Source of the DNA: Bacteroidota bacterium
GTDB lineage: Bacteria > Bacteroidota > Ignavibacteria > Ignavibacteriales > Ignavibacteriaceae
Reading direction: 5' to 3'
Length of the DNA stretch: 53,731 nucleotides
Assembly (NCBI GenBank): GCA_021815365.1
Contig: JAKAGZ010000009.1
Span: forward strand, 1 to 53,731
Shown here: positions 34,014 through 51,438 of the stretch, piece after piece
Numbering within the stretch: position 1 is the stretch's first letter
Layout: each line of letters opens with the position of its first letter
Position numbers and translations under genes: made by a program
Notes under the pieces: generated by a model
Seen by the model: the letters and a program-made list of their open reading frames with translations, nothing else
What the model was told of the DNA's origin: nothing
The model's database searches: none

Positions 34014-34721
34014 ATGCACTTTGCTGTTATTGCTGCAGGCGAGGGATCAAGATTAAAAGCAGAATCAGTCACTCTGCCAAAACCGCTCGTTGAAATAAAT
34101 AAAGTCCCGATTATCGAACGGTTATTTTCTGTTGCTATTAATAACAAAGCTGAATCAATAAGCTGTATTATCAATGAAGAGTTTAAAGAAGTACACGAGT
34201 TCTTAAAAAACAAAAAATTTAAAGTCCCTTTTAATCTCATCGTTAAATCAACACCCAGCTCGCTGCACAGCTTTTTAGCTCTTAAGCCTTTTCTTGAAAA
34301 TAAATCTTTTTGCCTGACTACAGTAGATACAGTTTTTGCTGAAGAAGAATTCAGGAATTTTATCAGCGAAGCTGAGTCACGCAAAGAATATGACGGGCTG
34401 CTGGCGGTTACTGATTTTATAGATGATGAAAAACCTCTTTGTGCTGATGTTGATGAAAATTTCAGAATATTAAAATTTGAAGACAATGCTGAAAATCTGA
34501 AATTCGCAACCGGTGGAGTTTATTATTTTTCAAAAAATATTTTTAATGAAATGGAAGCAGCAGTGAACAATGGTACAATGAGATTAAGAAACTTTCTCAA
34601 ATTATTAATAGAAAGAAACTATAATATCCACGCTTATAAGTTTTCAAAGATAGTTGACGTTGACCACTACTCGGACATTAAAACCGCTGAAGAATTTTTA
34701 AACTCTTCCATCATTAAATAA
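34014..34721 (+). CDS. Nucleotidyltransferase family protein (sugar/inositol-phosphate cytidylyltransferase-like)
   Basis: The 235-residue protein has the GT-A nucleotidyltransferase fold: IAAGEGSRLKAES as nucleotide loop, LPKPLVEINKVPIIERL, a metal-binding Asp in TTVDTVF (about residue 104), and later ATGGVYYFS. It lacks a second domain. The family covers MobA-, MurU- and CTP:inositol-1-phosphate cytidylyltransferase-like enzymes. Because it starts the gene set that ends with inositol-phosphate synthase, use of an inositol phosphate and CTP is attractive but inferred. Its gene ends 113 bases before mlaE, so it may be a separate transcript. Confidence 0.8.
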   Translation: MHFAVIAAGEGSRLKAESVTLPKPLVEINKVPIIERLFSVAINNKAESISCIINEEFKEVHEFLKNKKFKVPFNLIVKSTPSSLHSFLALKPFLENKSFCLTTVDTVFAEEEFRNFISEAESRKEYDGLLAVTDFIDDEKPLCADVDENFRILKFEDNAENLKFATGGVYYFSKNIFNEMEAAVNNGTMRLRNFLKLLIERNYNIHAYKFSKIVDVDHYSDIKTAEEFLNSSIIK

Positions 34722-34742
34722 TTTTTTGCAGCAACTTATATG

Positions 34743-34802
34743 TTGACATAATACAGCCCAGCAATTATATTGGAAACCAAAAACCCAACAAATAGTTTCC
34801 AA
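34743..34802 (+). promoter_or_regulatory. Candidate promoter and inverted repeat before mlaE
   Basis: TTGACA (34743-34748), a 17-base spacer and TATATT (34766-34771) form a good sigma-70-like promoter. Overlapping its end is the perfect inverted repeat TTGGAAAC (34770-34777) / GTTTCCAA (34795-34802), a possible operator. It would drive the mlaE-to-inositol-phosphate-synthase run. Confidence 0.5.
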
Positions 34803-34844
34803 AGAAGAAGCCGGAAATAGCCGGCAAAAATAAATGTGATTTTT

Positions 34845-35612
34845 ATGACTGGTATTGCTCACTCATTCAAATTAAAAATATACGGGCTTCAGGAATATAC
34901 CCTGATGCTTGTGGACTTATTTAAAGGATTGTCAACTTTCTGGAAAACATGGGCAGATGCAGTGAACGAAATGTACTGGATCGGTGCAAGAGCTTTCATG
35001 CCTGTTTTGCTCGGCGGAATTTTCGTGGGAATTATTCTTGCCCTTGAAACAGGTCATCAGTTAGATCATTTCGGAGCGAAAACACTCGTAGGCAGAACTG
35101 TTTCGCTTGGAATGATCAGGGAATTAGGTCCTGTGATAACAGGGCTGCTTCTTGCTGCACGAACCGGTGCGAAAAATGCTTCCGAACTAGGAGCCATGCA
35201 AATCAGTGAGCAGATTGATGCACTGCGCGCCTTCGGTACAAGCCCGATACAAAAGCTTGTCATCCCAAGAACAATAGCTGCGCTGGTAATGTTTCTCCCT
35301 TTAACCGCTATTGCAGATATTTCAGGCATCTTAAGCGGAATGATAGTTTCGAAATTATCTCTGAGCATTGATACTTCCTTCTTCTGGCATTCTGCGCTTT
35401 CTTCTTTATTGATGAAAGATATTTTTGTCGGTTTCATTAAGCCATTTTTCTTTGCATTTTTTATTTCGACAATTAGCTGCTATTACGGTTTTTCAACCAG
35501 AGGCGGCACTGTGGCACTTGGTAAGACAACAATAAATGCTGTTGTTTACTCTTCTCTTATTGTACTTGTGCTTGATTTTATTTTTACAAAAGTTGTATGG
35601 GAGCTGTTGTAG
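34845..35612 (+). CDS. mlaE: MlaE-type ABC permease for lipid transport
   Basis: The 255-residue inner-membrane protein is the permease of an MCE/Mla ABC system that moves phospholipids between the membranes. MlaE marks are WIGARAFMPVLLGGIFVGIILALE, the cytoplasmic helix RELGPVITGLLLAARTGAKNASELGAM and EQIDALRAFGTSP, and FISTISCYYGFSTRGGTVALGKTT. I chose the ATG at 34845 over a GTG 9 bases upstream. The ATPase gene begins 3 bases after its stop. Confidence 0.94.
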   Translation: MTGIAHSFKLKIYGLQEYTLMLVDLFKGLSTFWKTWADAVNEMYWIGARAFMPVLLGGIFVGIILALETGHQLDHFGAKTLVGRTVSLGMIRELGPVITGLLLAARTGAKNASELGAMQISEQIDALRAFGTSPIQKLVIPRTIAALVMFLPLTAIADISGILSGMIVSKLSLSIDTSFFWHSALSSLLMKDIFVGFIKPFFFAFFISTISCYYGFSTRGGTVALGKTTINAVVYSSLIVLVLDFIFTKVVWELL

Positions 35613-35615
35613 TTT

Positions 35616-36362
35616 ATGATAAACCTCTCACACGTAAGCCTGGAGTTAGCAGGAAAGACGATACTGAGCGATATTTCTTTATCAATTAAGAAAGGTGAAA
35701 TTGCCATAATTCTTGGTCCAAGCGGTGCCGGCAAAAGTTCCATATTAAAGATCATTCTCGGCTTATGGCGCCCTGACACAGGCAAAGTTTTTATCGAAGG
35801 AAAAAATATTGCAGGTATCCCTGAAAAAGAAATTATGCCGGTGAGAAGCAAAATGGGAATTGTATTTCAGGCTAATGCGCTGTTCGATTCTTTAAATGTA
35901 GAGGACAACGTTGCGTTTTTTCTGCGTGAACACAGTAAATTAAATTCAAAAGAGATCAGGGCAAAGGTTGCTGAAATTCTATCTTTTGTAAATTTAAAAG
36001 GAACAGAAAAAATTTATGTCGATCAGCTCAGCGGAGGAATGAAAAAAAGAGTTGCTATTGCAAGAGCACTTTCTTTCGATCCTGAAATAATTCTTTATGA
36101 CGAACCAACAACAGGGCTTGATCCTATTAATTCAAAATCCATTCTTGATCTGATCAAACAGGTAAGCGACCGCGGTGCCACTTCAGTGATCGTTACCCAC
36201 ATTTTAAATGATGCAATTTCTATCGGCGATACTCTTTCTGTTATTAATGACGGTTCACTTATTCAAACAGGAACAGTTCGCGATATGCTTAACTCTGAAA
36301 ATCAGTTTGTCCGCGATTTCTTTTACGAAGTTTACCAGGACGCTGCACTGTTTAAAAAATAA
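35616..36362 (+). CDS. mlaF: MlaF-type ABC ATP-binding protein
   Basis: The 248-residue ATPase powers the MlaE permease. It has Walker A GPSGAGKSS (about 33-41), Q-loop around VFQANALFDSLNV, signature LSGGMKKR, Walker B EIILYDEPTTGLDP and the H-loop IVTHIL. VFQANALFDS and the spacing are typical of Mkl/MlaF ATPases. It lies 3 bases after mlaE and 26 before mlaD. Confidence 0.95.
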   Translation: MINLSHVSLELAGKTILSDISLSIKKGEIAIILGPSGAGKSSILKIILGLWRPDTGKVFIEGKNIAGIPEKEIMPVRSKMGIVFQANALFDSLNVEDNVAFFLREHSKLNSKEIRAKVAEILSFVNLKGTEKIYVDQLSGGMKKRVAIARALSFDPEIILYDEPTTGLDPINSKSILDLIKQVSDRGATSVIVTHILNDAISIGDTLSVINDGSLIQTGTVRDMLNSENQFVRDFFYEVYQDAALFKK

Positions 36363-36388
36363 TTTTCAAATAACAAGCTGACAATTAT

Positions 36389-37351
36389 ATGGCAAAAAAA
36401 GTACTAAATTTATCTAACCTTAAAGTCGGGCTTACTGTTTTCCTGGGATTGGCTATCCTTTTTATTTTCCTCTTTATTGTTGGGTCCGAAAACAGCATTC
36501 TTTCAAGCAAATACGAACTTAAAATATTTATTCCAAACGTCCAGGGACTTAATAATGGCTCGCTGGTAAGCCTCGGTGGAATAAAGGTCGGTTCAGTCAA
36601 AGACAGAGAGTTTGCAACAAAGGACGGCGTGAACGGAGTTGATGTTACCCTGGATATATTAAAAGCCTACCAATCCCAGATCACTGTCAAATCAACAGCA
36701 CAGGTAAAAACGATCGGACTGCTGGGCGATCAGTTTGTTGATATTACTATTGGTCAGGCTGGCGAGCAGCCGCTGAAAGAAGGAGACTACATTACTGTTA
36801 AGCCAACACTGACATTTGACAAGTTTGCAGAAAAAGTTGAGCCGGCAGTTGAAGATTTTTCGGGAGTAATGAAAAATATGAAGCTTATCACCGATTCAAT
36901 TGCTCACGGCAAAGGAACGGTGGGAAGACTTATTAATGATTCCAAAACCGGAAGCACTCTGGAAAGTGTCTTAAACAATATTAATTCTGTCACAGAAGCA
37001 ATTAACAGAAAGAAAGGGACTCTCGGCAGGCTTACTTACGATACTTCCCTTTACAATAATCTTAATGAGTTAACGGGAAATATTAACACGATTTCCGATT
37101 CTGTAAAAGCAGGGCGGGGATCGTTAGGAAAATTATTTGTCAGCGATTCACTCTATAATAATATCAGCTCTTTAACCGGAAGATTAAACAAACTGTTAAG
37201 CAAAACAGACAGCGATACAACTCTTGCAGGCGCGCTTTTTAACGATGCAAAACTTTACAAACAGTTTAATTCAGTGTTAAAAGAGCTGAACCTATTAATA
37301 AAAGATCTGAGAGAGCACCCGGAAAATTATGTTCATTTTTCAGTGTTCTGA
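36389..37351 (+). CDS. mlaD: MlaD-type MCE-domain lipid-binding protein
   Basis: The 320-residue protein has one N-terminal transmembrane helix (about 12-31, VGLTVFLGLAILFIFLFIVG) and an MCE domain (about 40-120, IPNVQGLNNGSLVSLGGIKVGSV ... STAQVKTIGLLGDQFVDI). The C-terminal part carries about four repeats of the type GTLGRLTYDTSLYNNL (about 172-185, 208-225, 245-262, 284-296). Chlorobi and Bacteroidota MlaD often end in HFSVF, as here. MCE proteins form a hexameric ring that carries lipids across the periplasm. It completes the minimal MlaEFD set. Confidence 0.93.
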   Translation: MAKKVLNLSNLKVGLTVFLGLAILFIFLFIVGSENSILSSKYELKIFIPNVQGLNNGSLVSLGGIKVGSVKDREFATKDGVNGVDVTLDILKAYQSQITVKSTAQVKTIGLLGDQFVDITIGQAGEQPLKEGDYITVKPTLTFDKFAEKVEPAVEDFSGVMKNMKLITDSIAHGKGTVGRLINDSKTGSTLESVLNNINSVTEAINRKKGTLGRLTYDTSLYNNLNELTGNINTISDSVKAGRGSLGKLFVSDSLYNNISSLTGRLNKLLSKTDSDTTLAGALFNDAKLYKQFNSVLKELNLLIKDLREHPENYVHFSVF

Positions 37352-37393
37352 GTTGACAAGGAAGAATAAAATTAAAGACGGAGTTTTAATACA

Positions 37394-38218
37394 ATGAAAT
37401 TAAGAATGGCCGGAATTTCCCGCCAGGCAGAATATTCACCAAACCACGTTGAGAATGATTCTCTTATTCTAAGAGCAACCGCAGAAGTTTTAAAAGAATT
37501 TGACGTGGAAGTGATCTTTTACGGGGAAGGCGAAGTGCTTAACAGGGATTTTAATGAGGAATTAATCTTTTCAATGGCGCAGGGACCCGATGCTGTTGAA
37601 AAATTACTTGAGCTTGAAAAGAAAGGTTCGTTCATTATTAATTCCCCCCGTGCCGTGAAAAATTGCTACAGAATTAATATGGTAAGGCTCCTGCCGGAAA
37701 ACGGGATACCCTTCCCTAAAAGCATTCGGGTTGAAATTAATTCTGATATAGACATAAACCTGAACGGTTTTGACCCGCATAAATTCTGGATAAAACGTGG
37801 CGATGTTCACGCTGTTCACCGCGAAGACGTAACCCTTGTTTACAGCAAAGAAGAAAACATTTCCGTGATGAAAGAATTCTGCAGACGCGGAATTAAAACT
37901 GCAATTATCCAGGAACATCTTGAGGGCGATGTCATTAAATTTTATGCAGTGCGTAATTCAGGATTTTTTAACTGGTACTACCTGAACGGAAAATATCATA
38001 CAAAATTCGATCTCAATAAATTAATCGAACTCGCTTCATCTTCAGCGGAAATACTCGGATTAGACATTTTCGGCGGAGATGCAATTGTCTCTCCCGGCGG
38101 ATCTATTTCAATAATTGATATGAACGACTGGCCAAGTTTTGCGCCTGTAAGGGACGAAGCCAAAAAACACATTGCTAATTTAATCTATAATATGGCGGTA
38201 AAATATGTTGAAAACTGA
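37394..38218 (+). CDS. ATP-grasp enzyme (RimK/ITPK-like), unknown substrate
   Basis: The 274-residue protein has the C-terminal half of an ATP-grasp ligase or kinase: IIQEHLEGDVIKFYAVRN as the ATP-binding strand pair, LDIFGGDAIVSPGGSISIIDMNDWPSF with the metal-binding Asp/Asn pair, and an N-terminal part that resembles the RimK first domain. The DVIKFY and IDMNDWPSF patterns also recall inositol tris/tetrakisphosphate kinases of the ITPK group. In this inositol-rich neighbourhood either inositol phosphorylation or ligation of an amino acid to an amino headgroup is conceivable; sequence alone does not decide. Its last 14 bases overlap the aminotransferase gene. Confidence 0.7.
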   Translation: MKLRMAGISRQAEYSPNHVENDSLILRATAEVLKEFDVEVIFYGEGEVLNRDFNEELIFSMAQGPDAVEKLLELEKKGSFIINSPRAVKNCYRINMVRLLPENGIPFPKSIRVEINSDIDINLNGFDPHKFWIKRGDVHAVHREDVTLVYSKEENISVMKEFCRRGIKTAIIQEHLEGDVIKFYAVRNSGFFNWYYLNGKYHTKFDLNKLIELASSSAEILGLDIFGGDAIVSPGGSISIIDMNDWPSFAPVRDEAKKHIANLIYNMAVKYVEN

Positions 38219-39557
38219 TACTACAAATTCCTATGCGTCAATCATAACAAATGTGCCCGGACCAAATTCATTAAAATATTTTAACGAAGAAACCAAATAC
38301 ATTGCACCGGGAATTCAAACTATAGCTACGCGTTCAAAAGTAACTTTTGAAAAAGGCGAAGGCTGCATTATGCAGGATGTTGACGGAAACAGATATATTG
38401 ATTTCTTTGCCGGCGTTGGGGTTGCAAGTCTCGGCTATAACCATCCTGCTTACAATAAATACATGAAAGAACAGCTCGATAATATTCACGTGGGGAGCTT
38501 CACTTCAAAAAACAGGGTTGAGCTGACAAAACTTTTGGCTGAGAATACAATAGGCGATTTAACAAGAAGCCAGTTCTACAGCGGAGGCGCTGAAGCTGTT
38601 GAAGCCGCATTAAGAATGGCAAAGTCTTACACAAAGAAAAATGAATTCATTGGCTTCTGGAATGGCTTCCATGGAAAAACGATCGGCGTGTTAGGACTTT
38701 TAGGCGATGATTTCAAATTCGGATTAGGACCCCTTCCTGCGGGAATTTATACTTCACCATACCCTGATCCAAGACATTGCCCGATCGATCCAAACCCCGA
38801 AACAATGGCGAAATCCTGTGTGGATTTTCTCCGCAAGAAAATAAAATATGAGACAACAAATAATATTGCCGCAATAATTGTTGAGCCGATACAGGGAACA
38901 GCGGGGAATGTTGTTCCGGCTCCGGGCTTTTTAAAATTATTGCGTCAGCTTGCTGACGAGATCGGTGCTCTGCTTATCTGCGATGAAATGATCTGTGGAT
39001 TCGGAAGAACTGGAAAAATGTTCGGGACGCAGCACTTTGATATAATTCCAGATATTATGACTATCGGCAAAGGTTTCGGCGGCGGTTTCCCGATGACTGG
39101 AGTCATGTCCCGCGAAGAAATAATTTTCGCTAAACCTTTCGGTAACCCTAGCGGAAGCTCTTCAAGCTACGGAGGAAATCCTTTAGCTTCTACCGCTGCT
39201 TATATCACTTTAAAGACTATTATAGACGACGGGCTTGTTGAAAATTCTGCAAAGGTTGGAGAGTTTATGATCAGGAAACTTACTCGGCTCCAGAAAAAAT
39301 TTCCAATCATCGGCGATGTAAGAGGAAAGGGATTAATGATCGGGATTGAGTTAGTTAAAGAAAAAAATCTGAAAGAAAAATTAGATAAAAAATATACTGA
39401 GATGTTTTTCCAGGAATGCCTGAAACGCGGATTAGTGATGATGGGATATAATCCGGATATCCGTATTTATCCTCCTCTGATTGTCACCGAGGAAATAGCA
39501 GAAGAAGGAATATCAATTATGGAAAAGGCGTTTGAATATGTCTCTGATCAGCTCTAA
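38205..39557 (+). CDS. Class III PLP-dependent aminotransferase
   Basis: The 450-residue enzyme is a fold-type I, class III aminotransferase (4-aminobutyrate/ornithine/acetylornithine branch). FAGVGVASLGYNHP, SGGAEAVEAALRMAK (cofactor phosphate), WNGFHGKTIG, EPIQGTAGN, ICDEMICGFGRTG (Asp260 at the pyridine nitrogen) and IGKGFGGGFP (Schiff-base Lys289) are all present. Length is typical. The substrate is unknown: a ketone made by the neighbouring Gfo/Idh dehydrogenase is possible. It overlaps the ATP-grasp gene by 14 bases and the CDP-alcohol phosphotransferase gene by about 20, so translation is coupled. Confidence 0.9.
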   Translation: MLKTDTTNSYASIITNVPGPNSLKYFNEETKYIAPGIQTIATRSKVTFEKGEGCIMQDVDGNRYIDFFAGVGVASLGYNHPAYNKYMKEQLDNIHVGSFTSKNRVELTKLLAENTIGDLTRSQFYSGGAEAVEAALRMAKSYTKKNEFIGFWNGFHGKTIGVLGLLGDDFKFGLGPLPAGIYTSPYPDPRHCPIDPNPETMAKSCVDFLRKKIKYETTNNIAAIIVEPIQGTAGNVVPAPGFLKLLRQLADEIGALLICDEMICGFGRTGKMFGTQHFDIIPDIMTIGKGFGGGFPMTGVMSREEIIFAKPFGNPSGSSSSYGGNPLASTAAYITLKTIIDDGLVENSAKVGEFMIRKLTRLQKKFPIIGDVRGKGLMIGIELVKEKNLKEKLDKKYTEMFFQECLKRGLVMMGYNPDIRIYPPLIVTEEIAEEGISIMEKAFEYVSDQL

Positions 39558-40458
39558 AATTGAAGCAACATTTAAATCAAACGATACAGAAGAATTTCTG
39601 GATAGATACTTCTACCGCCCTGTTGGTTACGGTATAGCGGCTGCTTCCAGATCAATCGGACTCACACCAAATTTTATAACTATTACAAGTATAATTTTCG
39701 GTGTCCTTGCAGGGCATTTATTCTTCTATCAAAACACCGCGATAAATCTTACAGGCGTTTTGCTGCTTATCATCGCTGAAGCGATGGACAGCGCTGATGG
39801 TCAGCTTGCGAGAATGACAGGGATACATTCCCGCTATGGGAAAATTCTTGACGGCTTCGCCGGCAATTTAATGTTTACAAGCATCTATGCTAATCTCTGC
39901 GCAAGATTTATAGTAGAAGGCGGTTCACCCTTCATCTTTCTTGTAGGTCTTATTGCCGGATTCAGCCACTCTTCTCAGAGCGCTATGTCAGAATATTACA
40001 GAAATTTTTATCTCTATTTCGTTTATGGCGATGGGAAAAGCATAATTGATGAATCAAAAGACTTAATAGAAAAATACAAGTCCTTATCCTGGAGTAAAGA
40101 CACTACCAGGAAAATGCTGATGTGGTTTTATATTGATTATACACGCCGGCAGGAATTTTTTTCAAAGACCATCAGGACACTCTATAAATATTGTTCTGAA
40201 AAATTCAGCGGCAGTATTCCGGGCTGGCTTAAAACGGAATACAGGAAACTTAATAAGCCGCTGTTGAAGTATGGAAATATTCTTACAACTAACACACGTA
40301 TGATTTTTTTGTTCTTCACCATTTTTTATGCAAATGTTTTATATTACTTTCTCTTTGAAATAATTGTACTTAATCTCCTGCTCGTTTATTTTATCGTCAG
40401 ACACGAATACACAAGCAAAGAGCTCCTTCAACTCGCTCAATCTTATGCGGAGAATTAA
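39538..40458 (+). CDS. CDP-alcohol phosphotransferase family membrane enzyme, last catalytic Asp replaced
   Basis: The 306-residue membrane protein joins a CDP-activated alcohol to a second alcohol. The family signature DxxDGxxAR-x8-GxxxDxxxD is seen as D84xxD87GxxA91R92, G101 and D105, but the fourth Asp (position 109), the proposed base, is Gly (LDGFAGN). Hydrophobic helices at about 46-82, 105-145 and 265-295 flank a long hydrophilic loop (about 160-255). In this setting phosphatidylinositol-type lipid synthesis is the natural guess, with either CDP-diacylglycerol or a CDP-inositol donor. The missing Asp makes activity uncertain. I start it at the ATG at 39538; a TTG lies 6 bases upstream. 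Confidence 0.82.
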   Translation: MSLISSKIEATFKSNDTEEFLDRYFYRPVGYGIAAASRSIGLTPNFITITSIIFGVLAGHLFFYQNTAINLTGVLLLIIAEAMDSADGQLARMTGIHSRYGKILDGFAGNLMFTSIYANLCARFIVEGGSPFIFLVGLIAGFSHSSQSAMSEYYRNFYLYFVYGDGKSIIDESKDLIEKYKSLSWSKDTTRKMLMWFYIDYTRRQEFFSKTIRTLYKYCSEKFSGSIPGWLKTEYRKLNKPLLKYGNILTTNTRMIFLFFTIFYANVLYYFLFEIIVLNLLLVYFIVRHEYTSKELLQLAQSYAEN

Positions 40459-41513
40459 TGTTAAAAGGCGCAATTATCGGGTTTGGAAAGATCGCTCAGA
40501 GCAGTCACATCAAAGCATTCTTCAGCGATGAGCTAAAAAACAAAGCAGAAATTACATCGGTTGTAGAACCGGTTAAAGAAAACAGGAAAGAGGGAGAAAA
40601 AAAATTCCCTTCGTTAAAATTTTATGCTTCAACATCTGAACTTTTTTCAAACGAAAAAATAGATTTTATAGATATAACCGCCCCGCCGAAATTCCATGCT
40701 TCGCTGATTAAAGAAGGAATAAAAAATAATGTGAATATTCTCTGCGAGAAACCATTCACTTTAACTCTTGATGAAGCGGAAGAAACTTATAAACTTCTGA
40801 AAGAAGGCAGCGTAGTTTTTATGCCCTGTCATCAGTACAGGTATTCGCCAACCTGGAAAAATTTCAAAACATTTTTAAGTGAAAATGATCCGGCTTCAAA
40901 ATCACTTTTGCAGTTCAATATTTTCAGGATGCAGGCTGACCCGGGCGGAACGGCTTTCCAGCCGGAATGGCGTACCGATAAATCACTGAGTGGGGGCGGA
41001 GTGCTTGCCGATTCGGGTGTACATTATCTTTATCTTTTAAATTGGATGTGCGGAAAACCGCTTAGTGTAACTGCAAAAACTTTTACTTTGAATCATACAG
41101 AATATTCTGTTGAAGACACCGCAGTAGTATTCCTCGAATTCGAAAAGGCTTTTGCCGGGATCACCCTCACCTGGGGCGCCGACCGCAGAGTAAATACTGC
41201 AAGAGCTGTTTCAAACAAAGGAAGCTTATCATACGACGGCTCAACGCAGCTCAGAAAATATTTTAACGGGCAGGAAGAAATTATTGCAGTCCCCGATGCA
41301 TCAGATAAATCACATTATTTTTCTCTTTATATATCACTGATTAATGACTTCGTAAACACAATTCAAAACAAAGAATCTTCGTCTGTTGACGGGGAAGATT
41401 TCAGCAAATCAAAATTGACCGCTGTGCAGGAAGCGCTCACTTCAATCCGCCTGCTTCAGAAATGTTACGAATCGGCACAGAGTAAAAAAACCATCTTTTT
41501 TGCCGATGAATAA
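40458..41513 (+). CDS. Gfo/Idh/MocA-family NAD(P)-dependent oxidoreductase
   Basis: The 351-residue protein has an N-terminal Rossmann domain (IGFGKIAQSSHIKAFF), the EKP motif (ILCEKPFTLTLDEA, about 98-112) and a C-terminal alpha/beta domain that binds the sugar or cyclitol (GTAFQPEWRTDKSLSGGGVLADSGVHYLYLL, about 170-200). The HxxxD-like pair DSGVHY is the usual catalytic region. Members oxidise or reduce sugars and inositols (inositol 2-dehydrogenase is one). The start overlaps the previous stop (TAATG). Oxidation of an inositol in this operon is a plausible but unproven role. Confidence 0.86.
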   Translation: MLKGAIIGFGKIAQSSHIKAFFSDELKNKAEITSVVEPVKENRKEGEKKFPSLKFYASTSELFSNEKIDFIDITAPPKFHASLIKEGIKNNVNILCEKPFTLTLDEAEETYKLLKEGSVVFMPCHQYRYSPTWKNFKTFLSENDPASKSLLQFNIFRMQADPGGTAFQPEWRTDKSLSGGGVLADSGVHYLYLLNWMCGKPLSVTAKTFTLNHTEYSVEDTAVVFLEFEKAFAGITLTWGADRRVNTARAVSNKGSLSYDGSTQLRKYFNGQEEIIAVPDASDKSHYFSLYISLINDFVNTIQNKESSSVDGEDFSKSKLTAVQEALTSIRLLQKCYESAQSKKTIFFADE

Positions 41514-42531
41514 ATATCTTAAAACCATATTTTTTATAATCGGTCTTGCCGTTTTTGCATACCTTGTTCACGACTTCGGCATATCAAACATAATTGAGAA
41601 TGTAAAAAGATCGGGCTGGTGGTTCATTCCTGTCGTAGGCATTTGGGGCATTGTCTATTTAATGAATGCCTGGGCATGGTACTATATAATAGATGCAAAG
41701 AACAAAAAAGTTTCTTTCTCACATATCTTTGGAGTAACGCTGAGCGGATTTGCGATTAACTACATAACCCCTTTTGTAAATCTTGGCGGAGAACCTTACA
41801 GGGTATATGCCTTAAAAGATTCTATCGGGATGCACTCGGCAGTTTCCTCTGTAATACTTTACACTATGCTACATTTCCTTTCTCACTTTATTTTCTGGAT
41901 CACTGCAATAATTTTCACAGCTGTATTTCTTCCTATAGCTTCGGGAATAAAAATTACTTTGTTCACTGCTTTCGTGATATTATCCGGTTTTATCTGGTTT
42001 ACTTTTTCAAGACATAAAAAGGGGATTTTTGCTTCTTTAATTAATCTTTTATCAAAACTTCCTTTGTTAAAATCTCTTCATAAAAAATTAGAAAAGAAAG
42101 AAAAAAGTCTTTTAAAAATTGATGAGGAAATCAAGAATCTCTACAACAACAGAAAGAAAGCTTTTTACACTGCTTTGTTCTGGGATTACGCATCAAGGTT
42201 TGCCGCTTCATTTGAATTTCTTTTTATCCTTAAAGCAATCGGTATTAATATTTCTTTCATGGAAGCATTTTACATAAATGCAGGTTCTTCATTAATTATA
42301 AATTTATTTTTCTTTATGCCGTTTGAGCTCGGAACAAGAGAGGGCGGGCTTTATCTCGTTCTTGACAGCTTAGGGTTAAATGCTGTTACAGGAATTTATA
42401 TAGGACTCATAAACCGTGTGCGTGAATTTTTCTGGATACTAATCGGACTGATATTAATTCAGTTTAACGGAAAGAAAAGACCGGAAACCTCTAAAAATAT
42501 TTTTGAATATATGTCGGAAGATTCACAGTGA
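41506..42531 (+). CDS. LPG-synthase/flippase-like membrane protein (UPF0104)
   Basis: The 341-residue membrane protein has about 7-8 hydrophobic helices and resembles the transmembrane domain of lysylphosphatidylglycerol synthases (flippase-like domain family). Motifs are NYITPFVNLGGEPYRVYALKDS (about 83-104) and PFELGTREGGLYLVLDSLG (about 265-285), both typical. It lacks the C-terminal aminoacyl transferase domain, so it is more likely a lipid flippase or part of lipid biosynthesis. It overlaps the oxidoreductase gene by 8 bases and the HAD gene by 4. Movement of the new lipid across the inner membrane is an inference. Confidence 0.82.
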   Translation: MNKYLKTIFFIIGLAVFAYLVHDFGISNIIENVKRSGWWFIPVVGIWGIVYLMNAWAWYYIIDAKNKKVSFSHIFGVTLSGFAINYITPFVNLGGEPYRVYALKDSIGMHSAVSSVILYTMLHFLSHFIFWITAIIFTAVFLPIASGIKITLFTAFVILSGFIWFTFSRHKKGIFASLINLLSKLPLLKSLHKKLEKKEKSLLKIDEEIKNLYNNRKKAFYTALFWDYASRFAASFEFLFILKAIGINISFMEAFYINAGSSLIINLFFFMPFELGTREGGLYLVLDSLGLNAVTGIYIGLINRVREFFWILIGLILIQFNGKKRPETSKNIFEYMSEDSQ

Positions 42532-43262
42532 TCGAAGCTATACTTTTTGATTTCGGCGGCACGCTGGATACAAACGGAATCCACTGGAGCGAAATGTTCC
42601 GCACGGCTTATGAAAACGCAAAGCTCGGGATTACTTTTGAAGATTTTAACGAAGCTTATGTTAAAGCAGAATCCATGATGTACAAGCTGATAAAACGCAA
42701 CGATAGTTTTTTCAATACTATCCATACTCAATCTTTCCTGCAGCTTAAATATCTTGAAGAAAATAAAAGTTATAATTTTCCTGGTGGTTCATCAGTAACT
42801 TCGGAAGTTATCGCAAAAAATTGTTATGACTATGTTCTGAAAACCATAGGAACTGTCGGGCAGTTGCTATCATCGCTCGGCAAAAATTACAAACTTGGTG
42901 TGGTCTCTAATTTTTATGGTAATCTTGAGGCTTCATTAGAAAGCCTTGGGATAGCAAAATTTTTCAGCGTTATTACAGACTCAACATTAGCTGGTGTAAG
43001 TAAACCAGATCCGGCAATCTTTCGGGCTGCAATCAGTAAATTATCTGAAGAGATGGTGCCGGAAAAAATTACGGCTGAAAATATTCTTGTTGTTGGTGAC
43101 TCTTACACAAGGGACATCGAGCCTTCAAAAAAACTTGACTGCAAAACCATCTGGCTGGATGTCAGAAGCTGGGAAAGACCGGAAAAAACTGTTTCGGCTG
43201 ACTTTATAGTAAAAGATATTGTTGAAATTAAAGAGATAATTCATAAATTATCTCCCCGTTAA
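42528..43262 (+). CDS. HAD-superfamily phosphatase
   Basis: The 244-residue protein starts with GTG, overlapping the previous stop (GTGA). It has motif I AILFDFGGTLDTN (Asp8, with Gly rather than Asp at position 10), a helical cap (about 15-95), motif II VVSNFYGN, motif III around SKPDPAIFRAA, and motif IV VVGDSYTRDIEPSKKLD. Gly in place of the second Asp is common in DFGGTL-type HAD proteins. In an inositol lipid pathway a phosphatase is needed to remove phosphate from phosphatidylinositol phosphate; this gene is the obvious candidate, by position only. Confidence 0.84.
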   Translation: MIEAILFDFGGTLDTNGIHWSEMFRTAYENAKLGITFEDFNEAYVKAESMMYKLIKRNDSFFNTIHTQSFLQLKYLEENKSYNFPGGSSVTSEVIAKNCYDYVLKTIGTVGQLLSSLGKNYKLGVVSNFYGNLEASLESLGIAKFFSVITDSTLAGVSKPDPAIFRAAISKLSEEMVPEKITAENILVVGDSYTRDIEPSKKLDCKTIWLDVRSWERPEKTVSADFIVKDIVEIKEIIHKLSPR

Positions 43263-43300
43263 TTTTTTGAAAAATAAATATTAACAAATAAGGATAAACT

Positions 43301-44641
43301 ATGAAACAAGACATACAGCAGCCTGCTGGTAAGTTAGGAGTATTAATTGTCGGGTTAAATGGAGCAGTCTCAACTACTTTCTTAGCTGGTACGCTTGCAA
43401 TAAACAAAAACCTCGCGATGCCAATCGGGTCTCTGACCCAAATGGCAACAATAAGGATCGGGAAAAGAAGTGAAAATAATTTTCCCTTCATCAAAGATTT
43501 TGTACCGCTCGCTGATATGAACGATATGGTCTTCGGGGGATGGGATATACGCGATGAAAGCTGCTTCGATTCTGCAATGGAAGCAAAAGTGCTTCACGAA
43601 AAACATCTGCTCGCTGTCAGAAAAGAGCTTGATGCAATCAGACCTTTCCCGGCGGTTTTTGAACAAAGGTTTGTTGTGAGACTTCATGGCGATTTTGTTA
43701 AAAAAGGCAAAACAAAGTTTGAGCTTATGGAACAGGTGAGGGAAGATATAAGAAATTTCAAGGCTAAAAATAATTGCGAAAGGCTCGTTATTATCTGGTG
43801 CGGAAGCACAGAAATTTATTTACCTGCAAATAAAGACTTCGGCACAATAGACGGTTTCATAAAAGGAATGAAAGAAAATCATCCTGATATAGCTCCGAGC
43901 ATGATATATGCGTATGCAGCTATTGCGGAAGGAGTTCCATATATAAACGGGGCGCCAAATCTTTCCGTTGATCTCCCGGCGCTTGTAGATTTTGCAGAAA
44001 GAGAAAATGTTCCGGTAGCAGGAAAAGATTTTAAAACCGGTCAGACGATGGTAAAGACAGTCATTGCACCAATGCTTAAAGCAAGGATGCTCGGTCTGCA
44101 CGGCTGGTATTCAACAAATATTTTAGGTAACCGCGACGGCGAGGTTCTCGACGATCCTAATTCCTTCAAGACGAAAGAAGTCAGCAAGCTTTCAGTACTT
44201 GATTCAATACTTCAGCCGGAGCTTTATCCCGATCTTTACAAGAATCATCATCACCTTGTAAGGATAAATTATTACCCGCCCCGCGGCGATAATAAAGAAG
44301 GCTGGGATAATATTGATATTTTCGGCTGGCTTGGCTACGAAATGCAGCTTAAAATTAATTTCCTCTGCAAAGATTCAATCCTTGCTGCACCAATCGTGCT
44401 TGATCTTATCCTATTTATGGACCTTGCAAAAAGAAGCAATCACTCAGGAATTCAGGAGTGGTTATCTTTTTATTTCAAAAGCCCGATGCATGCAGAGAAC
44501 AAAGTTCCCGAACACGATCTATTTATCCAATTAATGAAGCTAAAAAATACGCTGCGCGAGCTTGTTGGTGAAAAACCTATTACACATACGGATCAGAATA
44601 ATAAGCATGAACTAATTGATGATGTAGATCTGTATTCGTAA
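43301..44641 (+). CDS. ino1: myo-Inositol-1-phosphate synthase
   Basis: The 446-residue enzyme converts glucose 6-phosphate to L-myo-inositol 1-phosphate with NAD. It has the nucleotide loop LIVGLNGAVSTT (about 15-26), WDIRDESCFDSA, VIIWCGSTEIYLPA, and the catalytic region VAGKDFKTGQTMVKTVIAPMLKARMLGLHGWYSTNILGNRDGEVLDDP (about 247-292) with its Lys residues. Further on are SILAAPIVLDLILFMDLAKRS and FYFKSPM. The length is close to bacterial and archaeal relatives. It closes the run of genes from mlaE and lies 38 bases after the HAD gene, so it fixes the theme of the cluster. Confidence 0.96.
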   Translation: MKQDIQQPAGKLGVLIVGLNGAVSTTFLAGTLAINKNLAMPIGSLTQMATIRIGKRSENNFPFIKDFVPLADMNDMVFGGWDIRDESCFDSAMEAKVLHEKHLLAVRKELDAIRPFPAVFEQRFVVRLHGDFVKKGKTKFELMEQVREDIRNFKAKNNCERLVIIWCGSTEIYLPANKDFGTIDGFIKGMKENHPDIAPSMIYAYAAIAEGVPYINGAPNLSVDLPALVDFAERENVPVAGKDFKTGQTMVKTVIAPMLKARMLGLHGWYSTNILGNRDGEVLDDPNSFKTKEVSKLSVLDSILQPELYPDLYKNHHHLVRINYYPPRGDNKEGWDNIDIFGWLGYEMQLKINFLCKDSILAAPIVLDLILFMDLAKRSNHSGIQEWLSFYFKSPMHAENKVPEHDLFIQLMKLKNTLRELVGEKPITHTDQNNKHELIDDVDLYS

Positions 44642-44778: not shown

Positions 44779-45804
44779 ATGATCAAATCTTATCAGCATA
44801 TAACCGGGGAACTTAATACCCTGCTAAATGAAAAAAATCTTAAAAAGATTAAATCACGCATTTCTTTTTTAAAAAAAGAGCTTACAGATCTCCAGGATAA
44901 AAAAAATAACAGTGAATATTTATCCAGAGACCTTGACCAGATTTACGAAGCGCACACGATCGAAAGAGCAAAATATTATATAAAAAGATTAGTCCGAAGT
45001 TTTTCGGAAATTAAAACCGGCAAGCACAACGACCTCAACCTTAACAGGTGGAAAGAATACAATGACATTATCACGGACAGTATCTGGATTCTCGATAAGC
45101 GCGATAAATCAGGCGCACACAACGGCGGCTACTGGGGAAATTTCATTCCACAGATACCGAATCAGTTCCTGAGGCGCTACACAAAAAAAGGCGAATGGGT
45201 GCTTGATCCATTCCTCGGAAGCGGAACAACACTAATAGAATGTAAACGGCTTGGCAGAAATGGCATCGGGGTTGAACTGCTTCCTAAAATTTCTGTACTC
45301 GCAGAAAAAAATATTTCAAAAGAAGAAAATCCTTTTAATGTAAAAACAGAAGTCATAAATGCTGACAGCACAAAACTTGACTTCAAATCTGAATTAAAAA
45401 AAATAAACATTAAAACAGTTCAGTTCTTAATTATGCATCCGCCTTACTGGGATATAATTAAGTTCAGCGAAAATAAGGACGATCTTTCTAATGCAAAAAA
45501 TTTAAAAGAGTTTTTAAGCAGGTTCGGCGAAATTGTTGACAGAACCTATCCGCTGCTGGATAAAGGAAGATATTTTGCTGTTGTGATCGGGGATAAATAT
45601 TCTGCGGGAGAGTGGATACCTCTTGGATTTTACACAATGCAGGAAGTGCTGAAACGGGGTTATAAATTAAAATCTACGATAGTAAAAAACTTCGAAGAAA
45701 CTAAGGGAAAAAGAAGCCAGAAAGAGTTGTGGCGGTACCGCGCGCTGGCAGGTGGGTTTTATATTTTTAAGCACGAGTATATTTTCCTGTTTCAGAAAGT
45801 ATGA
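44779..45804 (+). CDS. DNA methyltransferase (N4-cytosine or N6-adenine type)
   Basis: The 341-residue protein has a SAM-binding motif VLDPFLGSGTTLIE (145-150 core) and a catalytic motif IV FLIMHPPYWD (HPPY at 220-223, in place of the usual SPPY, NPPY or DPPY). Motif I lies before motif IV. An N-terminal helical part (about 1-100) with a coiled-coil-like stretch and a C-terminal region (YALKRGY-like LKRGYKLKSTIVKN) complete it. It should methylate an amino group of C or A in a defined DNA site. The PD-(D/E)xK-like gene begins 29 bases after its stop. His in motif IV is unusual and worth testing. The codon use does not obviously differ from its neighbours. Confidence 0.84.
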   Translation: MIKSYQHITGELNTLLNEKNLKKIKSRISFLKKELTDLQDKKNNSEYLSRDLDQIYEAHTIERAKYYIKRLVRSFSEIKTGKHNDLNLNRWKEYNDIITDSIWILDKRDKSGAHNGGYWGNFIPQIPNQFLRRYTKKGEWVLDPFLGSGTTLIECKRLGRNGIGVELLPKISVLAEKNISKEENPFNVKTEVINADSTKLDFKSELKKINIKTVQFLIMHPPYWDIIKFSENKDDLSNAKNLKEFLSRFGEIVDRTYPLLDKGRYFAVVIGDKYSAGEWIPLGFYTMQEVLKRGYKLKSTIVKNFEETKGKRSQKELWRYRALAGGFYIFKHEYIFLFQKV

Positions 45805-45833
45805 TTTTAAATGAGGCTTAGCCCAAAAATCTT

Positions 45834-46475
45834 ATGAATAATTTAAACCTCACACAAGTAGAAACTGAATTAAAGAAAAGAGCAGCTTACCCATACAGAT
45901 GGGGACGAAGACAAAATAATTTCTTTGATAAGCAAACTAATTTCATCTACAAAACTTTTTTATTTGATGACCTTCTAATAGAGCTTGATAAGCGATTCAA
46001 ATCTGATTCTGAATACGATAAATATTTTGATTACGCTTTAAACCGCTGGTACAATTTCTGGTCGGCACAGGCAGTAGAGCAAATCTTCTGCGCATTCCCG
46101 GAGGTAAAACCAGCACGCGACAGCAAAGACCGCCTTGTCGATTTTACAATACGGGGAGCTGCTTTCGATCACAAAACTTCAGTCTTTCCTAAAAACTTTC
46201 CCATGGAATTAAAAGAAGCAGTAAAGAACACACCTGAATTAATCAAATGGTTTTACAAAAATCAGTCGCAGCAGCAGAGAAAGCACTTAAAGAACCGCCT
46301 GTTCATTGTTCTTTATAATTCATCCGGTGAGCACTGGAAATTAAAAGCTGAAATTTCCTGGCTGAAAGAAAAAATAGATCATTACCTGCTTGGCTTTCAC
46401 CCGGATTTCCTGATGAAATTTTCTTTCGAAAAAGGAAAGACGATTATTTCGGATGTGATCTGGGCTGTAAAATAA
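45834..46475 (+). CDS. Putative restriction endonuclease (PD-(D/E)xK-like), partner of the methyltransferase
   Basis: The 213-residue protein is not a family I recognise. It has a possible PD-(D/E)xK site: Asp103 in LVDFTI, then D112-H-K114 in AFDHKTS, with Glu82 (AVEQIF) on the preceding helix. That order fits a restriction-type nuclease core. The rest is basic and aromatic (RWGRRQNNFFDKQ). Its position right after a DNA methyltransferase supports a restriction-modification pair. The catalytic assignment is by eye and could be coincidental; a different role as accessory protein is possible. Confidence 0.5.
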   Translation: MNNLNLTQVETELKKRAAYPYRWGRRQNNFFDKQTNFIYKTFLFDDLLIELDKRFKSDSEYDKYFDYALNRWYNFWSAQAVEQIFCAFPEVKPARDSKDRLVDFTIRGAAFDHKTSVFPKNFPMELKEAVKNTPELIKWFYKNQSQQQRKHLKNRLFIVLYNSSGEHWKLKAEISWLKEKIDHYLLGFHPDFLMKFSFEKGKTIISDVIWAVK

Positions 46476-46482
46476 ATAAACT

Positions 46483-46521
46483 GAAAACCTCCCGGGTTTT
46501 AAAAACCCCGAATGTTTTTAC
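46483..46521. terminator. Bidirectional terminator between convergent genes
   Basis: AAAACC-TCCC-GGGTTTT and the overlapping CGGGTTTT/AAAACCCCG pairing form a hairpin in the 45-base gap between the putative endonuclease gene and the NCS1 transporter gene, with T- and A-runs on both sides. Confidence 0.6.
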
Positions 46522-47933
46522 TATTTCTTCATCAACAAATAATAAACCACAAACGACACTGCAAATCCCACAAACCATGCATAATCATAAAGAAAATGAA
46601 GCGGTGGAATTATCAGACCTATTAATGCAGTAAACACTCCTGCCGCAAGGGAAATAATTCCTTTGGAGTTAAAGCCATTTTTATATTCATAAATTCCGTT
46701 TCTTACATAGAGATCTTTAACTTCAAGTTTTTGACTCCTGATCAGAAAATAATCACAGATCAGAATCCCGGCGATGGGCCCAAGAAAACTTGAATATCCA
46801 ACCAGCCATCCGAAAATATAAGCGCTGTAATCAGAGAGGAGTTTCCAGGGCATCATCACAATTCCGATAACTGCTGTTATCAATCCGCCTCTGACAAAAT
46901 TTATTTTCTTCGGAAAAAGATTTGCGAAATCATTGGCCGGGGAAACAACATTTGCAGCTATGTTCGTAGTTAGAGTCGCAACAAGCAGAGAGACCAAAGA
47001 AAGAAACACAACAAATGGATTATGAAATTTTGAAAGAAGAACAACCGGGTCCCAAATCGCTTCTCCGAAAATTACCACTGTTGCGGATGTAACTGCAATC
47101 CCGATAAAAGAAAACAAAGCCATTGTGGGCGGCAGACCGATTGCCTGCCCGATTATCTGTGCCCTCTGGCTTTTTGCAAAGCGGGTGAAATCTGGAATGT
47201 TGAGAGAAACAGTAGCCCAGAAACCAACCATTCCGGTTAATGATGGAATAAAAAATTTCCAGAATTCTCCGTCTGTTTGAAATTTGCTCGGCTGATTTAA
47301 AATCGGACCAAAGCCGCCGCCAGCATTCCATGCCCAGTAAAGAAGAACCAATCCCATCACAATTAAAAACGGTGCGGAAAGAGACTCGAGCCAGCGGATA
47401 GATTCTGTTCCGTTAATTATAAAATAAACGTTCATTAACCAGAAAATTAAAAAGCCGACAGCAGGACCCCAGGAAAAAACTGCCCAGCCCGGAAGCACCA
47501 GAACAATTAATGAGTTAAATGCCTGCCCGCCTATCCACGTTTGAATTCCAAACCAGCCGCAGGCAACAATTGCACGAAGAAGTGCAGGAATATTTGAACC
47601 AAGTGTTCCAAAGGATGCTCTCGCCAGCACGGGAAAAGGTATTCCGTATTTAGTTCCGGCATGAGCATTTAAAACCATAGGAACAAGAACGATAATATTT
47701 CCGAGAGCAATTGTCATCAGCGCCTGCCACCAGTTCATTCCGCCGGCGATCAATCCGCTTGCAAGAAGATAGGTCGGAATACAAACACTCATCCCAATCC
47801 ACAATGCGGCTATGTTATAAGTACCCCATGTACGCTGAGAAACTTTTGTGGCTGCAAGATCATGATTAATTAAAGGACTACCTGAGATTTCTGCCAGGTC
47901 AGTTTCGATCAAGTCAGAATTGATTTGCTGCAT
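46521..47933 (-). CDS. NCS1-family nucleobase:cation symporter
   Basis: The 470-residue inner-membrane protein has about 12 hydrophobic helices and belongs to the nucleobase-cation-symport-1 family (uracil, allantoin, hydantoin and related permeases). Typical segments are NIAALWIGMSVCIPTYLLASGLIAGGMNWWQAL, GIPFPVLARASFGTLGSNIPALLRAIVACGWFGIQTWIGG and the later FTRFAKSQRAQIIGQ. It ends the pyrimidine operon 54 bases after dihydropyrimidinase, so uptake of uracil or thymine is the natural role. Allantoin or hydantoin cannot be excluded. Confidence 0.9.
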   Translation of the reverse strand: MQQINSDLIETDLAEISGSPLINHDLAATKVSQRTWGTYNIAALWIGMSVCIPTYLLASGLIAGGMNWWQALMTIALGNIIVLVPMVLNAHAGTKYGIPFPVLARASFGTLGSNIPALLRAIVACGWFGIQTWIGGQAFNSLIVLVLPGWAVFSWGPAVGFLIFWLMNVYFIINGTESIRWLESLSAPFLIVMGLVLLYWAWNAGGGFGPILNQPSKFQTDGEFWKFFIPSLTGMVGFWATVSLNIPDFTRFAKSQRAQIIGQAIGLPPTMALFSFIGIAVTSATVVIFGEAIWDPVVLLSKFHNPFVVFLSLVSLLVATLTTNIAANVVSPANDFANLFPKKINFVRGGLITAVIGIVMMPWKLLSDYSAYIFGWLVGYSSFLGPIAGILICDYFLIRSQKLEVKDLYVRNGIYEYKNGFNSKGIISLAAGVFTALIGLIIPPLHFLYDYAWFVGFAVSFVVYYLLMKK

Positions 47934-47986
47934 CCTGAGGCCCTCTTGGTTATGAATGAATATTGGGAAATTTATTTAAGAATAGA

Positions 47987-49375: not shown

Positions 49376-49392
49376 TTTAACCTCACTGAAAA

Positions 49393-49986
49393 TTAAATTT
49401 TATATTTATGTTTCTGTTTATTGTTCTTCCCGTACTTAATCTTCGGTTCACCAATAGTAAAACCAAAAGTTTTTTTAGGCTTTTCAGGTGGCTGCATTAA
49501 TTGACGGATAGCTTCTATTAAAACATTTATGTCGTTGTCATGATTAATCACCTTGCGCTCAAGATCATCTAATCTCTTTGCAAGTTCACTTGTGGTAGAA
49601 ATATTTTTTCTGATTTGGATAAACGCACGAACCACAAGAACGCTCATACTTACAGCCTTAGAGCTATTTAATACATTAGCTGCCATAATAGCTCCATGTT
49701 CAGTAAATACCAGAGGAAGTTTTCTTCTTCCGCCGCGAATGGAGTTTGATGTTGCATTTTGCAACATCAAATTATCAAATTCTTTTTTAGTTAGTCGAAA
49801 CACAAAATCGCGTGGGAACCTTTGCATATTCCTTTTGACTTGTTGATTGAGACGAGCCGTTGTTACTCCGTAAATTGCAGCAAGATTACTGTCAAGGATT
49901 ACTTTCTCTCCCCGAAGCGTAAATATTATTGTTTCAATCCGCTTATATGTAATTAGTTTTTTCCCCGTTGTATATTTAATAGCCAT
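49393..49986 (-). CDS. ORF6N-domain DNA-binding protein
   Basis: The 197-residue protein has an ORF6N domain at about 15-115 (IETIIFTLRGEKVILDSNLAAIYGVTTARLNQQVKRNMQRFPRDFVFRL ... LPLVFTEHGAIMAANVLNS). The segment after it (about 120-165) is predicted helical and coiled-coil-like, and the tail is basic (KYGKNNKQKHKYKI). ORF6N proteins occur in phages and as solitary chromosomal genes; exact function is unknown. It sits between preA (25 bases away) and hydA (17 bases away), where it has no clear metabolic role, so it looks like an insertion into the operon that kept the order and direction. Confidence 0.88.
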   Translation of the reverse strand: MAIKYTTGKKLITYKRIETIIFTLRGEKVILDSNLAAIYGVTTARLNQQVKRNMQRFPRDFVFRLTKKEFDNLMLQNATSNSIRGGRRKLPLVFTEHGAIMAANVLNSSKAVSMSVLVVRAFIQIRKNISTTSELAKRLDDLERKVINHDNDINVLIEAIRQLMQPPEKPKKTFGFTIGEPKIKYGKNNKQKHKYKI

Positions 49987-50011
49987 AAGTTACATTACTT
50001 AAATTAGTAGC

Positions 50012-51331: not shown

Positions 51332-51382
51332 AACAAATCCGTGAATGTTTTATGTTTTATTCTCATCTAAAAATGTTTGAAA

Positions 51383-51438
51383 GAATGGCTGAATGACTGA
51401 ATGACTGAATGACTGAATGGTTGAATGGTTGAATGCTT
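51383..51438. repeat. Tandem array of seven 8-bp repeats (left border of the four-helix-bundle gene)
   Basis: Seven exact-length units of the form GAATGRYT (GAATGGCT, GAATGACT x3, GAATGGTT x2, GAATGCTT) end 8 bases before the stop codon of the four-helix-bundle gene. The same unit in reverse orientation lies at 51976-51996 on the other side. Confidence 0.8.

Follow-up and report, generated by a model that had tools for sequence, protein, structure and literature searches.

At positions 34014-44641 of a 53,731-nucleotide stretch of Ignavibacteriaceae DNA (contig JAKAGZ010000009.1; the whole stretch is called the window below), eleven open reading frames (ORFs) follow one another on the + strand in an operon-like run. 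They encode a nucleotidyltransferase, MlaE, MlaF and MlaD, an ATP-grasp enzyme, a class III aminotransferase, a CDP-alcohol phosphotransferase, a Gfo/Idh/MocA dehydrogenase, an LPG_synthase_TM/HpnL-like membrane protein (LPG-like below), a HAD hydrolase and a myo-inositol-phosphate synthase (Table 1). Tentatively, we explain the set as an operon for the biosynthesis and transport of a phospho-cyclitol membrane lipid, which would be made by a CDP-inositol (Kennedy-like) route, bear an amino-inositol headgroup and have a dedicated transporter. A putative inositol-lipid core within it is well supported by the protein families encoded. Inositol lipids are rare in bacteria.

An original prediction, made from the nucleotide sequence, had proposed an inositol-phospholipid pathway fused to an Mla-type lipid transporter. 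The link between the two is supported and is conserved in related genomes; no fusion exists, as the Mla genes are separate neighbours. The gene set has layers: a core of nucleotidyltransferase, ATP-grasp, CDP-alcohol phosphotransferase and HAD genes, often with the flippase-like protein and inositol-phosphate synthase; the aminotransferase and dehydrogenase pair; and MlaE/F/D.

Conservation of the cluster and its transporter

All of the genes named in the original prediction are present, and the ORFs and Pfam matches confirm that they run in one direction, mostly overlapping or a few bases apart. Neighbouring genes overlap or are separated by 3-42 bases, the exception being 114 bases 3' of the nucleotidyltransferase gene. 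The CDP-alcohol protein of the window was used as the query against 294 genomes of the window's class, which yielded 22 orthologues in 21 genomes (own genome counted), all at E ≤3.5e-72 and with identities of 42-68% across the class; the next-best match reached 33% (4e-31). The eleven genes were then sought by tblastn in each of the fetched loci, namely the other 21 orthologous ones (L010-L030) and 19 paralogous ones (L031-L049).

Conservation of gene order, a check that the original prediction had set beforehand, was found in these 21 class loci. The order of the genes present is kept in 17 of them, and the remaining four (L024-L027) differ solely in the position of the LPG-like gene, which follows MlaD; the eleven-gene arrangement is for this reason more than chance. 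Adjacency by chance, to which we give practically no credence, is refuted by the keeping of that order, at such protein identities, across several families (17 of 21 loci). The 19 paralogue loci showed no cluster neighbours by tblastn, save MlaF (ABC ATPase) matches of 24-28% in three.

Loci with at least 6 kb upstream and at least 5 kb downstream were considered full-length, and 18 of the 21 class loci qualified. The nucleotidyltransferase, ATP-grasp and HAD genes each occur in all 18, the synthase and the LPG-like gene in 17 each, and the aminotransferase and dehydrogenase in 15 each. With less stringent flanks, a nucleotidyltransferase orthologue was found in 19/19 class loci (≥2.5 kb upstream) and the ATP-grasp gene in 20/20 (≥1.5 kb upstream). 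The nucleotidyltransferase, originally placed just ahead of the unit, is part of it. At 19 of the 21 fetched class loci inositol-phosphate synthase is present; the genomes of the other two carry it away from the locus.

The window shares with MlaEFD/MCE phospholipid transport systems a permease, an ATPase and an MCE protein in a row. The source genome (3.09 Mb, 110 contigs) has three MlaE genes; the cluster MlaE is 59-77% identical to the copies of 13 other clusters, as against 32-34% to the other two of its own genome. Because the cluster copy is so much closer to those of other clusters than to its own paralogues, the pathway is accompanied by its own MCE transporter, if not at every locus: weighing against a dedicated transporter, MlaE/F/D are found in 13 of the 18 full-length class loci and are missing from five. 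The NCBIfam scores lie under the cut-offs (TIGR00056, 206.2 bits vs 212.2; OM_asym_MlaD, 71.2 vs 135), and MlaB, MlaC and MlaA were matched by none of the eleven genes, the rest of the genome not having been searched. In our explanation the HpnL-like protein would flip the lipid and the cluster MlaE/F/D would shuttle it between inner and outer membrane. The LPG-like protein matches the TIGR00374 flippase-like domain at 71.3 bits, over the cut-off of 43.2, and HpnL at 5.9e-37, under its cut-off (both NCBIfam). Were an MCE system encoded together with the enzymes for a single lipid, both its cargo and its direction would become directly testable.

The core pathway and the proposed route to the lipid

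The core extends well beyond the class. Named-genome loci were taken as the best 80 of at least 541 confirmed relatives; these are top matches and no random sample, and some of the organisms may also be in the class set. Among the sources are Sphingobacterium, Parabacteroides, Dyadobacter, Runella, Dysgonomonas, Muribaculaceae and Bacteroides ihuae. Of the 77 named loci with ≥1.5 kb upstream, 75 have the ATP-grasp gene. A flank of 2.5 kb upstream was available for 74 loci, 68 of which have the nucleotidyltransferase, and one of 2.5 kb downstream for 63, of which 62 have the HAD gene; around the CDP-alcohol gene of full-length named loci, the counts are 46/48 for the nucleotidyltransferase and 48/48 for HAD. 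Of 101 genomes of the Bacteroidaceae, to which B. ihuae belongs, 63 have a CDP-alcohol orthologue. Thirty of these loci, fetched with flanks of about 1.5 kb, contain nucleotidyltransferase, ATP-grasp and HAD genes in 27 cases each and an LPG gene in 22, with neither aminotransferase nor dehydrogenase seen in any; 11 of the 12 Bacteroidaceae loci listed run nucleotidyltransferase / ATP-grasp / CDP-alcohol / LPG / HAD.

Judged by its predicted proteins, this core agrees with the putative alternative inositol-lipid cluster that the main text of Heaver et al. (2022; PMC9246714) describes in B. vulgatus and Prevotella, a known but unproven pathway to which that text attributes the phosphoinositol dihydroceramide of B. 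vulgatus and P. veroralis. Common to both, in so far as the main text describes the cluster, are a nucleotidyltransferase, a CDP-alcohol phosphotransferase, a HAD protein, inositol-phosphate synthase and a lysyl-PG-synthase-like gene, whereas MlaE/F/D, the class III aminotransferase and the Gfo/Idh dehydrogenase are additions of the window. A text search of the main text of PMC9246714 returned no mention of ATP-grasp; the B. vulgatus locus tags given there (BVU_RS13095/13105/13115) leave space for one gene between each pair, as would be expected if the ATP-grasp and LPG genes sit in those gaps. One disagreement is that the search motif printed there for the B. vulgatus enzyme ends in an Asp that window-type proteins mostly lack. 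The same text reports a CDP-alcohol/HAD fusion in P. veroralis, and a counterpart with both domains in one 536-amino-acid (aa) frame was seen at L132:3166-4776.

The original statement that no described pathway with the full set is known stands for the transporter and the amino module, which look new within the open-licence PMC literature searched, but not for the core, already described as putative in the main text of PMC9246714. Among the titles listed in searches of the same literature, none concerned an inosamine or aminoinositol lipid.

The proposed order of reactions in the core is as follows: the nucleotidyltransferase would form CDP-inositol, and the CDP-alcohol phosphotransferase, in the membrane, would transfer phospho-inositol to a lipid alcohol (diacylglycerol, DAG, or ceramide). 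The main argument for a CDP-inositol route is the constancy of the nucleotidyltransferase in the unit. We also favour a CDP-inositol lipid operon because both the nucleotidyltransferase (NF041135, inositol-1-P cytidylyltransferase/DIPP synthase, 1.2e-11 in NCBIfam) and the CDP-alcohol enzyme match the IPCT/DIPPS model, neither as its best match. The di-myo-inositol phosphate pathway of Archaeoglobus and the Thermococcales, to which IPCT/DIPPS belongs, has in common with the window cytidylyltransferase-like and CDP-alcohol enzymes and inositol-phosphate synthase; in the window, however, the two enzymes are not joined in one protein, and the transporter and flippase-like genes nearby place them in a lipid context.

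Several family assignments weigh against this route. The best model for the nucleotidyltransferase is a sugar one (rmlA_long, 4.9e-16), two more sugar models also outrank NF041135, and all of its NCBIfam matches fall far under the curated cut-offs. The CDP-alcohol protein belongs to PF01066 (45.6 bits vs a gathering score of 22), and its solved relatives are AF2299, phosphatidylinositol phosphate (PIP) synthases and IPCT-DIPPS. Its best NCBIfam models are archaetidylinositol phosphate synthase (6.6e-14) and PIP synthase (4.8e-10), both under cut-off, which use a CDP-lipid and inositol phosphate; the DIPP synthase model ranks fourth (2.6e-7, under cut-off), and profiles against the PDB likewise place PIP synthases above IPCT-DIPPS. 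These nearest relatives, inositol-phosphate-using synthases, would suit a CDP-DAG route in which the CDP-alcohol enzyme joins a CDP-lipid with inositol phosphate, HAD acts as the phosphatase and the nucleotidyltransferase has its place at a different step. Such a route has been shown in B. thetaiotaomicron, where the main text of PMC9246714 gives a PIP-DAG intermediate and the phosphatase BT_1525. We regard it as distinctly improbable for the window: the nucleotidyltransferase is kept in every full-length class locus and in nearly all full-length named loci, the PIPSynBT1523 model is matched at just 3.5e-6 (under cut-off), and the CDP-alcohol protein exceeds the PIP synthase model in length by about 100 residues. 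The B. thetaiotaomicron genes BT_1522-1526 share with the window the inositol-phosphate synthase, whose best solved relative is the inositol-3-phosphate synthase 7nwr (6.5e-179), and a CDP-alcohol enzyme; the nucleotidyltransferase is an addition of the window. The original prediction had drawn on this gut-Bacteroidota route, and its inositol-lipid core survives; as to the chemistry, the nucleotidyltransferase points instead to CDP-inositol, with the nearest families of the CDP-alcohol enzyme in disagreement.

The window CDP-alcohol protein departs from the full motif DxxDGxxARx8GxxxDxxxD in that the first three Asp are kept and the fourth is Gly. This, too, counts against the proposed chemistry, and it is general: Gly occupies the fourth position in 17/21 class, 75/80 named and 30/30 Bacteroidaceae loci (B. 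ihuae is in both of the latter sets), and Asp is found there in 4 of 131 cluster loci as compared with 20 of 20 paralogue stretches. Similarly, the HAD protein has Gly at the motif-I Asp+2 position, and its motif I, DxGGT, is present in all 94 aligned copies (the window plus 93 of 94 HAD frames, one having been dropped by length). From its sequence, the CDP-alcohol enzyme appears to be a divergent PF01066 branch that should work as a CDP-alcohol phosphotransferase, and the change at the fourth Asp together with the HAD DxGGT suggests special chemistry or acceptors. An extra small CDP-alcohol phosphotransferase gene was observed between the LPG-like and ATP-grasp genes in L024-L027, which represent one family of the class, and in the named locus L089; L024 has a radical SAM gene there as well.

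Serine palmitoyltransferase was considered as a sign of a ceramide acceptor and rejected as non-discriminating, with matches at E ≤1e-110 in 282 of the 294 class genomes. The homologue in the source genome has as its best solved relative the Sphingobacterium-type enzyme (3.7e-118) and scores under the curated cut-off of the CFB model. At L138:257-2736, a serine palmitoyltransferase homologue is followed by a 394-aa protein (the neighbour, at L138:257-1438) that has no NCBIfam match.

Supply of inositol is a further point of weakness. Of 18 tested core genomes lacking the synthase at the locus, 14 had none anywhere, their completeness not being given; all 14 are among the 16 tested from outside the class, and the other two are class genomes. 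Such synthase-less genomes outside the class may use imported inositol or another polyol. These 14 genomes lend support to an alternative, compatible with our explanation, in which the core makes phospho-polyol lipids in general: a free polyol would be phosphorylated by the ATP-grasp enzyme and then activated by the nucleotidyltransferase, and inositol would serve as headgroup only where the synthase supplies it. We consider this unlikely, given that all 21 fetched class loci belong to genomes with a synthase, that a synthase stands at 53 of the 80 named loci and that imported inositol could also account for the 14.

The putative amino module and the ATP-grasp enzyme

The aminotransferase and dehydrogenase behave as one module, as originally proposed: among the 101 fetched loci, some of them truncated, both genes are present in 25, neither in 76, and, at the thresholds used, one alone in none. 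Of the class loci, 17 of 21 have the pair and four have neither gene (L019, L021, L022, L030); of the named loci, eight have the pair and 72 have neither. Gfo matches of 21-28% in L100, L111 and L113, remote from the cluster, were left out of these counts. By title, six of the eight named loci are from Ignavibacteria/Ignavibacteriales/Ignavibacteriae, one is from a 'Bacteroidetes bacterium' and one from Patescibacteria. A record titled Patescibacteria (L055) has the full eleven-gene cluster, with a CDP-alcohol protein 60% identical to that of the window; the contig is possibly misassigned. The pair genes flank the CDP-alcohol enzyme in all 17 class loci that carry them, and at E ≤1e-140 the aminotransferase was found in 10 of 395 phylum genomes as a single match, every one at the cluster. 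In a quick tree built from 44 CDP-alcohol proteins (the window, the 21 class loci and 22 of the 80 named loci), the pair label needs four changes, two of them forced; both genes move together, and the direction is consistent. One genome (G029) holds both forms, L016 with aminotransferase, dehydrogenase, Mla genes and two ATP-grasp copies, and L019 plain. Genomes with and without the pair, and this genome with both, constitute a natural experiment.

Ketone formation followed by amination would be the natural joint function of such a pair. One hydroxyl of the ring would first become a ketone through the Gfo/Idh dehydrogenase and then an amine through the class III aminotransferase, yielding an amino-inositol headgroup. 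Amination of the streptidine and kanosamine type proceeds in this way, with StrI and StsC or with NtdC, NtdA and NtdB, in each case a Gfo/Idh dehydrogenase and a pyridoxal phosphate (PLP) aminotransferase working with a kinase or HAD phosphatase. Compared with these systems, the window differs in having a class III rather than a DegT-type aminotransferase and in its phospholipid operon setting. Both enzymes retain expected motifs: EKP and D-x-G-x-H-Y are invariant in 18 of 18 aligned dehydrogenases, and PLP-enzyme motifs are kept in most aminotransferases. The best NCBIfam model for the dehydrogenase is inositol 2-dehydrogenase (1e-25).

Three observations tell against an amino-inositol product. 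That inositol dehydrogenase match is far under cut-off and many sugar dehydrogenases match too; the nearest solved relatives of the aminotransferase are a 4-aminobutyrate aminotransferase-like protein and amino-acid racemases; and the changes of the pair on the tree are too few for significance (two usable pairs on starred branches). Elsewhere, Gfo/Idh and aminotransferase pairs act on nucleotide sugars (GnnA/GnnB, WbpB/WbpE). The pair in the window might thus act on another sugar or precursor, leaving the core alone to concern inositol and the lipid as unmodified phosphoinositol; WbpB is among the dehydrogenase matches (3o9z, 7e-10), and the best nucleotidyltransferase model is, as noted, a sugar one. 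We find this doubtful, since there is no glycosyltransferase among the eleven genes and the pair flanks the CDP-alcohol enzyme wherever it occurs in the class.

The 274-aa ATP-grasp protein is a core enzyme that needs a role before the pathway can be understood, gut Bacteroidota included. The original prediction had made it a further modifier in the amino step; because it is present with or without the aminotransferase, it is a core gene outside the amino module. The gene is tandemly duplicated in L011, L012, L013 and L016. It has no Pfam match, and ITPK (PF05770) gives none at E ≤1. A confident AlphaFold2 model (predicted local distance difference test, pLDDT, 89.9) matches ATP-grasp enzymes in structure searches, many of them alike: Foldseek gives similar ranks to D-Ala-D-Ala ligase, ArgX and ITPK, and a further fold search places carbamoyl-phosphate synthetase, LysX/ArgX and RimK on top, with no ITPK among the 50 matches listed. 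Against the PDB, a 24-member profile finds ITPK4 first (1.4e-5) and PsnB next (2.4e-4), and a 59-member profile finds PsnB, a peptide ligase, first (2.8e-6), then ITPK (1.2e-5) and ArgX (0.02). In Pfam at E ≤0.1, ITPK is matched by seven of the 59 members (best 0.0015) and RimK by six (best 0.00074). A search with PF05770 of 296 phylum genomes and 14 controls gave no match anywhere, controls included, and so is no evidence of absence. Assignment as an inositol-phosphate kinase, suggested by a motif likeness, had a mixed outcome over the profile, fold, Pfam and NCBIfam tests.

The ligase matches suggest a rival in which a plain phosphoinositol lipid is joined to an amino acid: the ATP-grasp protein would be a RimK-like ligase, the aminotransferase would supply or racemize the amino acid, and the Gfo/Idh enzyme would make another precursor. 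In its favor, the NCBIfam models rimK_fam and MptN match 58 and 56 of the 59 members, D-Ala-D-Ala ligases, LysX/ArgX and RimK appear among the structural matches, PsnB heads the larger profile search with ArgX behind it, and alanine/serine and broad-substrate amino-acid racemases are among the solved relatives of the aminotransferase. The rimK_fam match is, however, unspecific: it also picks up frames of about 450 and 1,100 aa, presumably other ATP-grasp proteins, at about 1e-15 to 1e-8, and as a control it matched in 61/61 class genomes at E ≤1e-5, above cut-off in six only. The window protein itself scores 26 bits against RimK-family TIGR00768, short of the cut-off of 143.4. ITPK kinases come up in the profile searches at 1e-5 to 2e-2, RimK only at 0.13-0.58; moreover, most loci have the ATP-grasp gene without the aminotransferase. 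The second metal ligand is Asp in 59/59 members, in an Asp-x-Asn pair that we take to be metal-binding; the same letters occur in the ITPK rows, and PsnB has Glu. Glu is the residue at this position in ligases (observed here for PsnB alone). On these grounds we hold the amino-acid reading to be improbable. The invariant Asp leans toward a kinase, which we rank above a ligase with modest confidence.

Returning to the proposed amino-inositol lipid, we infer its reactions, substrates, amino product and direction of transport from the gene content, order, co-occurrence and family matches observed. The HAD protein would remove and the ATP-grasp enzyme add a phosphate (or the latter would ligate an acyl group) at some step of the pathway; a kinase and HAD together could free the ring of its first phosphate, allow it to be altered and rephosphorylate it, which would give every gene a place. 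A bolder version, possible though on balance unlikely, is a new lipid class, a phospho-aminoinositol lipid made via CDP-activated amino-inositol, with the ATP-grasp enzyme as a bacterial cyclitol kinase, a distant relative of the inositol-phosphate kinases of eukaryotes, and a dedicated MlaEFD carrying the product to the outer membrane; some species would then make plain and amino forms from two operons.

Genes of the cluster and its surroundings

Table 1. Genes of the cluster at 34014-44641 of the window, with the family or structural match for each.
Feature	Position	Strand	Match
Nucleotidyltransferase, 235 aa; candidate CTP:inositol-phosphate cytidylyltransferase	34014..34721	+	NTP_transferase, PF00483 3.2e-14
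MlaE-type permease, GTG start	34836..35612	+	MlaE, PF02405 1.1e-70
MlaF-type ATPase	35616..36362	+	ABC_tran, PF00005 1.3e-34
MlaD/MCE protein, 320 aa	36389..37351	+	MlaD, PF02470 4.5e-14
ATP-grasp enzyme, 274 aa, core; candidate cyclitol kinase or ligase	37394..38218	+	AlphaFold2 model, ATP-grasp structure matches
Class III aminotransferase	38205..39557	+	Aminotran_3, PF00202 4.9e-100
CDP-alcohol phosphotransferase, 306 aa; TTG start at 39532 also possible	39538..40458	+	CDP-OH_P_transf, PF01066 1.2e-11
Gfo/Idh/MocA dehydrogenase	40458..41513	+	GFO_IDH_MocA, PF01408 3.6e-20
LPG_synthase_TM / HpnL-like membrane protein, TTG start; candidate flippase	41500..42531	+	LPG_synthase_TM, PF03706 6.1e-34
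HAD hydrolase, GTG start, motif I DxGGT	42528..43262	+	HAD, PF13419 1.2e-15
myo-Inositol-phosphate synthase	43301..44641	+	myo-inositol-1-phosphate synthase, PF07994 2.1e-104

Downstream of the cluster, a DNA methylase (N6_N4_Mtase) and then a 213-aa protein without a convincing Pfam match occupy 44779-46475, possibly as a restriction-modification pair. On the - strand, at 46521-53378, a run of genes encoding a cytosine/purine-type permease, an amidohydrolase, a dihydroorotate-dehydrogenase-like iron-sulphur protein and a Pyr_redox_2/Fer4_20 protein resembles dihydropyrimidine degradation, and a 23S rRNA intervening-sequence protein sits within it.

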